This document shows, one piece after another, positions 2,624 through 4,202 of a stretch of 6,048 bases of DNA. Both the position numbers and the translations under genes were made by a program. Within the stretch, counting starts at the first letter, position 1. Each line of letters opens with the position of its first letter. This stretch comes from Clostridia bacterium (GTDB taxonomy: Bacteria > Bacillota > Clostridia > Oscillospirales > CAG-272), in the NCBI GenBank assembly GCA_017559555.1, contig JAFYRH010000250.1:1-6048 (forward strand), given 5' to 3'. The notes under the pieces are model-generated. The model searched no databases. It was not told the origin of the DNA and worked only from the letters and a program-made list of their open reading frames with translations.

Positions 2624-3922
2624 TTAATTATCCGATTCGTTTTCCTTGCGCTCTTCGGACTTTTCCTCATCCTTTTCATCTTCGTCTTCGTCATCCTTGT
2701 GGAAAACGGTGATTTCTGCCGAGATGATACGTTGAACGTCCATTTCGCGAACAGTGATACTCATGTTTTCATCGGTGTAGGTTTGACCCTCTTCGGGAAG
2801 TCCACCGAATTTTTCCATGACGTAACCCGCAAGCGTACCGCTTTCGGTTTCCAGATCCAAATCGACTTCATCCAAAAAGTCGTCCAAATTTGTGGAACCG
2901 TCAACAAGATAGGTGTTCTCACCGATTTCTTGAATATCTTCTTCAACCTCGTCGTGCTCATCCCAAATTTCGCCTACGAGCTCTTCGAGAATATCTTCCA
3001 TTGTAACAATACCCAACGTTCCGCCGTACTCATCAAGAACAACCGCGATGTGGGTCTTTTCTTTTTGCAGGGACATCAACAAATCGTTGACACGCTCACC
3101 GTGTTGAACGTAAACAACGGGAGTCATAATTTTGGTAATATCATCGGTGGTAATACCGTTTTTGCCGAAGAAATCCTTTTGATGTACTACACCAACAATG
3201 GTATCGATGCTATCACGATAAACCAACAGACGGGAGAACTGCGAGTTTGCAAAGGTGTCGGCAACCTCATCAACGGGGGTGTCGATTGCAACCGCCTCAA
3301 GATCCATACGGTGTGTCAAAATATCATCTGCGCGACGCTCGGTAAATTCAATTGCGTTACGAAGCAAATTGGATTCGTTTTTATCAATGGTTCCCTCTTG
3401 CTCAACCTCTTCCACAAGCATCAAAAGCTCTTCCTGGGACATTTTGTCGTCTTCTTCGTTCTTTTTGATGGCTTTGGAAATCAGCTTCTTCCAAGCGGAG
3501 AAAACCGCATTCAAGGGCAACAGAATGCCAATAAAGAAGCGGATAACGGGAGCCGAGAACATAGCAAACTTCTCAGGGAAATCTTTTGCCAAGCTCTTGG
3601 GAGTGATTTCGCCAAAAATCAGTACAACAACGGTAATGATGATAGTTGCTACTGTAGGAGCAGCCGCGTGATTGTTCATCAAATCGATGAAGTACACCGT
3701 TGCAATGGCAGAAAGCGCAATATTAACAATGTTGTTGCCGATGAGAATGGTGGAAATCAAACGGTCGTAGTTATCGCACAGTTTGAGAACCAACTTGGCT
3801 TTGCGGTCGCCATCTTCGGCAAGGGTTTTGAGTTTAATTTTATTTACGGCAGAAAAAGCCGTTTCGGTGGCGGAAAAATATCCTGACATAATAACAAGTG
3901 CCACCATAATCAATATAAGCAT
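2624..3922 (-). CDS. CNNM/CorC (HlyC/TlyC) family cation transporter
   Basis: This 432-residue integral membrane protein belongs to the family of magnesium/cobalt exporters that includes firmicute YhdP/MpfA-type proteins; older databases call them hemolysins. The N-terminal CNNM (DUF21) domain covers about 1-150, with [13 protein letters not shown] (13-25), GNNIVNI (62-68) and [10 protein letters not shown] (103-112). A CBS pair follows (about 198-315), containing the family signature [20 protein letters not shown] (297-316) and ending in GEIWDE. A CorC/HlyC C-terminal domain lies at about 333-408, then a highly charged tail (409-432). Length is typical and no key motif is missing. The ATG at 3922 has AGAGGAGA about 5 nt upstream. 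The gene stands alone, with its own consensus promoter and a leader of about 245 nt, so post-initiation control is likely. The transported ion cannot be told from sequence; Mg2+ efflux is the best guess. Confidence 0.95.
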
Positions 3923-4167
3923 TTTAGTCTCCTCTAAATCAAAATTTTAATCGTTTTTGTGTTCTCATAAAAATGTGGCAAAAAGATCAGGAAATGATTT
4001 TTTCGCACGCTTTGTGTCTAAAAACGACACAAAAAGGCGCACCCACCCTGTCCTGTGCAGTGTAGATGTGCCGCTCACATACTAAAATTCGATTCAAAGG
4101 GATACAGTTCGCCTCACCGCTACTGTCGCCGTCCATTTCGAGTTCGGATCCTCCTTTTTGCAAGATT
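3923..4167 (-). promoter_or_regulatory. long structured 5' leader of the CorC-type gene, riboswitch candidate
   Basis: From the predicted start site near 4167 to the ATG at 3922 the transcript has about 245 untranslated nt. Visible pairings are an outer stem joining 4148-4157 with 4096-4103 (8 bp, 2-nt bulge), ACAGT/ACTGT inside it (4104-4126), ATGTG/CACAT (4066-4080), GCAC/GTGC (4039-4058), and TTTGTGTC/GACACAAA (4011-4033). The last hairpin's loop contains TCGTTTTT on the minus strand, complementary to AAAAACGA (3951-3958) close to the ribosome binding site. I do not recognise the conserved core of the M-box, yybP-ykoY or another leader I know. A cation-sensing RNA would suit the gene, but that is inference. 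Confidence 0.55.
3987..4136 (-). other. 49-codon ORF in the leader, doubtful coding
   Basis: An ATG-initiated frame of 49 codons ending in TGA lies within the leader and begins MDGDSSGEANCIPLNR, with cysteines at 11, 20, 36 and 44. GGAGG (4150-4154) precedes it, but 13 nt from the ATG, which is long. That GGAGG is also paired in the predicted outer stem. Its four arginine codons are CGA, CGG, AGG and AGA, while nearby genes mostly use CGT and CGC. I lean towards non-coding structured RNA. A leader peptide remains possible. I recognise no domain. Confidence 0.25.
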
Positions 4168-4173
4168 GCGATT

Positions 4174-4202
4174 ATTATAGCATATTTTTAAAAGTTTGTC
4201 AA
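4174..4202 (-). promoter_or_regulatory. consensus sigma-A promoter of the CorC-type gene
   Basis: TTGACA (4197-4202) and TATAAT (4174-4179) on the minus strand are 17 nt apart, and TGC directly before the -10 gives an extended -10. A-tracts upstream of the -35 (about 4203-4223) may strengthen it. It lies 252 nt upstream of the start codon, which defines the long leader. Confidence 0.92.

Follow-up and report, generated by a model that had tools for sequence, protein, structure and literature searches.

A candidate leader-peptide attenuator ahead of the gene for a likely clostridial magnesium exporter of the CNNM/CorC family

How might a long leader control the cation transporter gene that it precedes, and does it do so as a riboswitch? 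The leader considered here lies in a window of 6,048 nt, the whole stretch of DNA that was analysed, from a Clostridia bacterium (CAG-272, Oscillospirales; assembly GCA_017559555.1, contig JAFYRH010000250.1), and stands ahead of a gene (3922-2624, minus strand, like all leader features below) for a CNNM/CorC-family protein of 432 amino acids with matches to PF01595 (CNNM), PF00571 (CBS) and PF03471 (CorC_HlyC). The product is likely a Mg2+ exporter, the direction of transport being taken from the family. A first-pass annotation had placed a perfect extended −10 promoter about 245 nt ahead of this gene and proposed that the leader is a cation-sensing RNA. The promoter is borne out: the predicted site (4202-4174) consists of TTGACA (4202-4197), a spacer of 17 nt and TATAAT (4179-4174) with TG before the −10 box, matching the consensus at 12 of 12 positions, in a window with two promoter-like sites compared to 0.8 in shuffled sequences. 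The leader length also agrees, as transcription is predicted to start at about 4167 and the gene begins with the ATG at 3922, behind the Shine-Dalgarno sequence AGAGGAG (3935-3929). Elsewhere in the window, next to an ApbE flavin transferase gene (87-1190), is a gene (1241-2419) whose product has no Pfam match; it contains a NNDPANNDPA repeat stretch and consists of two halves that resemble each other (DAYTGMEAG..).

Layout of the leader and the riboswitch idea

In addition to what had been noticed before, the leader contains a short upstream open reading frame (uORF) and a terminator-like hairpin. The uORF (4136-3987), which follows the Shine-Dalgarno sequence AAGGAGG (4156-4150), has 49 codons and a start that is conserved in relatives, and its predicted leader peptide, MDGDSSGEANCIPLNRILVCERHIYTAQDRVGAPFCVVFRHKACEKIIS, begins MDGDSSGEANCIPL. 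The first eight codons (4136-4113) give the acidic start MDGDSSGE, as delineated by codon counts and by an alignment of 22 relatives picked by motif. Codon 5 is AGU (4124-4122) and codon 16 is CGA (4091-4089), and many related uORFs have CGA between codons 10 and 16. The uORF overlaps the hairpin (4072-4036; −16.8 kcal/mol with flanks, −16.5 kcal/mol alone, and similar in relatives), which together with the TTTTT on its 3′ side (4035-4031) looks like an intrinsic terminator. The T-run is followed by GTG, and a second small hairpin, TTTGTGTCG...AGACACAAA (4033-4011), has a predicted energy of −8.7 kcal/mol. Across the CNNM leaders with a uORF, GTG or GCG often stands directly after the T-run (4035-4025 in the window), even where the uORF has already ended.

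A metal-binding riboswitch would act on the terminator through an aptamer for Mg2+, Mn2+, Co2+ or Ni2+ folded in the first 110 nt of the leader. The identity of the downstream gene, a cation transporter, speaks for such an element, as does the fold of the entire leader, which is more stable than its shuffles (z −3.2, equalled by none of 200). The terminator-like hairpin lies in the later half of the leader, but the 5′ 108 nt, with the motif singled out earlier, are no more stable than shuffles (z +0.33, equalled by 118 of 200). The 8-bp outer stem proposed around GGTGAGGCGAACTG does not behave as a conserved element: in 22 relatives, chosen by the uORF-start motif, 59.7% of cells are paired compared to 59.2% in shuffles, and none of the 7 pairs of this stem as we interpreted it, to which the covariation test was confined, has a two-sided change. 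A search of the leader against Rfam 15, which includes M-box, yybP-ykoY and NiCo, gave nothing near the gathering score even with permissive filters, in agreement with the earlier remark that the leader could not be matched to known metal riboswitch cores. Though the M-box (RF00380), which senses Mg2+ by RNA folding, is likewise found on leaders of Mg2+ transporter genes, the window contains no match to it. Conservation attaches to the beginning of the reading frame and to the terminator-like hairpin, rather than to the proposed stem, and a riboswitch or other ligand-binding aptamer at this place is very unlikely. The broader view of a long, conserved and probably regulatory leader on a cation transporter gene survives, since relatives share the layout, which has no match in Rfam.

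The shared layout can be seen in six relatives with 52 to 82% identity (L003, L004, L006, L007, L008 and L009). In all of them the uORF is acidic, the hairpin (−17.5 to −29.9 kcal/mol) is accompanied by a T-run, and the uORF stop lies past the point where the 5′ arm begins; no Shine-Dalgarno sequence was found for the uORF of L008, and a further relative (L005, 71% identity), cut by a contig end, stands outside this comparison. Among near orthologues the start of the frame is kept while its end varies: L039 and L042 have their stop immediately ahead of the hairpin, the frame runs through the hairpin in the window and in L003, and L004 does likewise in another frame. A kept start and a variable end are what would be expected if the leader depends on the first residues and on how far the ribosome travels.

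Acidic starts and codon choice ahead of CNNM genes

We looked for the uORF-start pattern in one genome each of 84,980 species and obtained 18 stretches, 16 of them from Clostridia or Oscillospiraceae assemblies. A CNNM frame follows in 14 of these 16 (13 by phmmer and L041 by eye), and the sequences of L046 and L048 stop before a frame of this kind could show. The remaining stretches come from Planctomycetales, with no CNNM gene nearby, and from Cellulomonas, at a CNNM gene whose domain was confirmed (G331:C404:5278-5856). The Cellulomonas uORF (L040, 5180-5245), MDGDSSTDPLRPYETATGGEI, has the same start nucleotides as in Clostridia and a stop that overlaps the CNNM start (TGATG), although just 2 of 30 other CNNM loci from Actinomycetota carry an acidic uORF; transfer and convergence are both possible origins of the shared start. 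A search that tolerated up to one mismatch and covered 295 genomes from the order to which the window belongs gave 34 matches in 28 genomes. Of the 30 matches that we read, 12 have no CNNM or MgtE gene and 18 lie at one, seven of the latter being the first codons of the CNNM gene itself and not uORFs (e.g. MDSDSII, MDGDSWP and MDSDSWL). One chance match (L051, from 1440) sits inside a CRISPR-like array with repeats of about 30 bases, as judged by eye. The fixed motif ATGGANRGCGACAGTAG was discarded as the essence of the feature, as CNNM genes selected by domain carry other codons and other acidic peptides.

To avoid selection by motif, CNNM genes were chosen by a PF01595 search of 147 genomes, giving 110 genes among the matches listed, that of the window included (30 given as loci and 80 fetched); the selection passed over the second gene of tandem pairs, several loci that had been read before and some of the weaker matches. 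We counted a start as acidic when at least two of residues 2-5, either of a uORF or of the CNNM gene itself, were D or E. Such a start is found in 59 of the 110 CNNM genes among the matches listed, compared to 38 of 434 control genes from the same loci (Fisher 2e-23, kinship ignored). The 110 CNNM genes divide into 34 with an acidic uORF, 20 with an acidic start of their own, 5 with both and 51 with neither, and the controls, which include genes of MgtE loci, into 19, 16, 3 and 396; gene starts and controls were both chosen by script rather than by annotation. Of the 18 families in the CNNM set, 11 contain an acidic uORF whose residue 2 is D or E (12 before one uORF call, in L149, was removed as spurious). 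The uORF peptides are diverse, for instance MDGDSS, MDSDDGD, MDTDEGD, MDSDDSDCDD, MDDGGS, MDEPPR and VDEPPPS, and the genes' own acidic starts include MDPDP, MDPDS and MDSDG. Synonymous codons also differ among starts, as in ATGGATTCGGATGAC and ATGGACAGCGACGAC. That the starts of other relatives vary in sequence yet remain acidic is a further point against a riboswitch.

The 51 CNNM genes among the matches listed that show neither feature count against an attenuator. They would be expected if no regulation by the uORF takes place, with frame and hairpin as by-products and the acidic start as a trait of the CNNM N-terminus or of efficient initiation. An acidic start is not a general property of CNNM proteins, however, as only 2 of 30 CNNM loci in Actinomycetota pass the same threshold and 0 of 30 a stricter one. 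This rarity, matched by that in the control genes, argues against by-products, as do the acidity common to separate uORFs and to genes' own starts, and the codon skew and stop positions described below, which are far from chance. We consider it improbable that the uORF has no part in regulation.

Codon choice was examined in 32 CNNM uORFs, 38 own starts of the acidic type and 13 MgtE uORFs, all distinct, with starts that share their first 24 bases counted once. Six uORF calls judged spurious were dropped from this set (L083 at −316, L099 at −398, L149 at −398, L115, L167 and L168) and three uORFs picked by eye were added (L103, L136 and L123). At the CNNM and MgtE starts 78 of 141 serines are encoded by AGU, compared to 8% in gene bodies, 18 of 208 at the starts of control genes and 14% in control uORFs; at codon 5 the figure is 28 of 31 serines among 100 distinct starts. 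Of the AGU triplets at these starts 79 are in frame and 10 are not, and they stand at several codon positions, so that AGU appears to be decoded rather than to be part of a fixed nucleotide site, which again disagrees with a riboswitch. Other codons are skewed as well: CGA accounts for 39 of 69 arginines (10% background), CCU for 31 of 78 prolines (15%) and GAC for 124 of 172 aspartates (48%). Codons 10-16 hold 13 of the 20 CGA codons of the CNNM uORFs and 13 of the 19 of the MgtE uORFs. A combined signature, which asks for D or E as the second or third residue, for AGU or CCU among codons 3-9 and for CGA among codons 6-24, marks 13 of 32 CNNM uORFs, 9 of 13 MgtE uORFs and 1 of 174 control uORFs, the sole control sitting upstream of an MgtE gene (L069). 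General use of rare codons was rejected as an explanation, as other uORFs of the same loci have no enrichment of AGU, CGA or CCU over background and the bodies of 30 CNNM genes use AGU for 28 of 780 serines and CGA in 12 of 485 cases. The AGU skew is a sharp clue that the sensor may include the identity of codons beyond the charge of the peptide.

Ribosome reach and a proposed response to Mg2+

Downstream of 24 of 31 distinct uORFs is a strong hairpin with a T-run, and in 23 of these 24 the uORF stop lies at most 9 nt before the 5′ arm of the hairpin or past it, compared to 18 of 48 alternative frames (Fisher 9e-7, kinship ignored). With the stop at or near the 5′ arm, a finishing ribosome would be expected to cover that arm. 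The leaders therefore have the layout of a ribosome-mediated transcription attenuator, with a uORF open to translation and placed so that a ribosome on it could act on the terminator. The presence of a terminator by itself is weak evidence, as a terminator-like hairpin lies within 200 nt upstream of 30 of 39 CNNM genes that have an acidic uORF and also of 39 of 69 that lack one. Pairing of the uORF with downstream RNA, which could act as an antiterminator, is not above shuffles in 28 CNNM leaders (mean z −0.3).

Several known systems suggest what the ribosome might report. In MgtL low Mg2+ favours dissociation of the ribosome at the EPDP start, according to the excerpted text of PMC11282234, and the same kind of feature, an acidic uORF start before a Mg2+ transporter gene, is present in the window as MDGDSSGE. 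Excerpts of PMC12421838 report a ribosome-destabilising sequence at the start of CorC, for which higher levels at high Mg2+ are proposed, and those of PMC6711546 describe MpfA, a CNNM-family protein, as required for Mg2+ export in another Gram-positive. Taken together with the geometry, these precedents suggest that surviving ribosomes block the terminator and that their loss at low Mg2+ frees it. We thus favour, with moderate confidence, the view that the conserved 49-codon uORF, with its acidic start and its passage through the hairpin, is a leader-peptide attenuator in which cytosolic Mg2+ is read from the survival of ribosomes over the first codons. Ribosomes would enter the uORF of each transcript, and the acidic nascent chain (MDGDSS...) together with the wobble codons AGU, CGA and CCU would make them unstable when Mg2+ is low. 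Early loss of the ribosome would then let the terminator form and keep the exporter off, and with enough Mg2+ the ribosome would reach the 5′ arm, prevent the hairpin and allow RNA polymerase into the CNNM gene. We infer translation of the uORF, the response to Mg2+ and its sign; frame, acidic start, codon signature and geometry are seen directly in the leaders. A cation response, as the first-pass annotation had it, remains likely, with translation of a leader peptide as the route in place of a cation-sensing RNA.

Some observations fit this attenuator model less well. Destabilisation by charge does not alone predict AGU and CGA. Excerpts of PMC11282234 report no EttA dependence for EE or DE alone, with DPEE as the minimum motif in one E. 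coli reporter, and acidic pairs alone can often be too weak, which would count against the model. It also requires a ribosome close behind RNA polymerase, and the coupling of transcription and translation, considered loose in Bacillus, may be loose in this group.

The strong skew to particular codons also recalls amino-acid attenuators, and the sign or the input could be another, with stalling at AGU or CGA altering read-through and Mg2+ acting indirectly; serine or arginine supply, tRNA modification, the general translation state and antibiotics are candidate inputs. There are precedents for such control in the mgtA leader, where excerpts of PMC6335274 describe codon-specific Mg2+ sensing through m1G37-dependent codons (CCC/CCU, CUC/CUU and CGG), and in the B. 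subtilis transporter operon bmrCD, known for ribosome-mediated attenuation (PMC4191407). Against this, AGU, CGA and CCU span three amino acids, CCU being the only one among the m1G37 codons named in that text, and the combined signature precedes CNNM and MgtE genes, with even its single control occurrence upstream of an MgtE gene. Additionally, the uORF reaches the terminator, and the CNNM uORFs lack any special antiterminator-like pairing. An attenuator with opposite sign or other input is on the whole unlikely.

Related systems and the leaders of MgtE and CorA genes

The attenuator proposed here shares with MgtL of mgtA (E. coli and Salmonella) a short uORF with an acidic start, a Mg2+ transporter gene and control of termination. 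MgtL controls an importer gene by way of Rho and switches it on upon ribosome loss, whereas here the gene is for a likely exporter, the terminator is of the intrinsic type and the gene is predicted to be on when ribosomes finish. The two peptides differ by eye, and the codons of mgtL are m1G37-dependent ones (PMC6335274). CorC (YbeX) of Salmonella and E. coli, with a destabilising start and proposed synthesis at high Mg2+, resembles the CNNM genes with acidic starts of their own; it differs in being cytoplasmic and without a membrane domain, and the excerpted text of PMC12421838 describes no uORF-terminator arrangement. In the YoaL-mgpA leader YoaL overlaps its gene, unlike the uORF in the window. 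The bmrCD operon (PMC4191407) shows that ribosome-mediated attenuation occurs in Gram-positives, with antibiotics as input rather than ribosome survival.

A similar arrangement is known from pyrBI, where the leader frame enters the terminator and a close ribosome prevents termination. The likeness lies in the frame running into the terminator and the difference in the input, UTP in pyrBI compared to ribosome survival as the sensor here. Among the literature matches listed, in which subscription journals were mostly outside the search, no title or beginning of an abstract describes a leader peptide before a clostridial CNNM or MgtE gene. Though the principle of ribosome-based Mg2+ sensing is known from enterobacterial MgtL and CorC, we found no report among these matches of the present peptides, of their codon signature or of the wiring to an exporter. 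If the model holds, ribosome-based sensing of Mg2+ would reach beyond enterobacterial importers to a group of gut Clostridia and to Mg2+ export, and would account for the switching of many CNNM genes in the absence of a riboswitch. As such short uORFs are easily overlooked in annotation, the layout can serve as a simple search rule for other genomes.

MgtE genes provide a second family. A uORF that begins M[DE] behind a Shine-Dalgarno sequence is found in the window's order at 15 of 28 MgtE genes and at 40 of 108 CNNM genes, compared to 13 of 321 controls, which here exclude the MgtE loci but retain the MgtE gene of L069. The MgtE uORFs emerge by this measure and not by the strict acidity threshold, and they are of a distinct type, MDAGSSxG...GR, with AGU and CGA codons (L191, L192, L194-L197, L199, L200, L202-L205, L213, L217 and L219). 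Two further cases are MDGDSR.. in L069 and MNSDSS.. in L070. When stretches of 60 and 45 nt were compared with shuffles that preserve base composition only, the MgtE uORFs paired with the downstream leader beyond expectation (mean z −2.6, 15 leaders), in contrast to the CNNM leaders above. An Rfam scan of 20 of the 30 MgtE loci found the M-box (RF00380) at two (L207 and L209) and at the gathering score in none of the other 18. These results suggest that the importer MgtE uses a related sensor with other wiring. A more general reading, which we put forward tentatively and regard as somewhat doubtful, is that bacteria of this order sense Mg2+ in the cytosol by how a small set of wobble codons (AGU, CGA and CCU) is decoded in acidic or Gly/Ser-rich leader peptides. 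This one ribosome-based sensor would be wired with opposite signs to the exporter and the importer, such that completion of the CNNM uORF would block a terminator and loss of the ribosome at MgtE would free the uORF RNA to pair downstream.

CorA leaders were considered as a third family and set aside, with M[DE] uORFs at 3 of 28, which is not significant. Individual uORFs upstream of CorA genes, MDPAPG.. (L257), MNPDPRSRKK.. (L267) and MSPDPSRSRR.. (L285), look similar to MgtL, with acidic residues and proline followed by basic residues.
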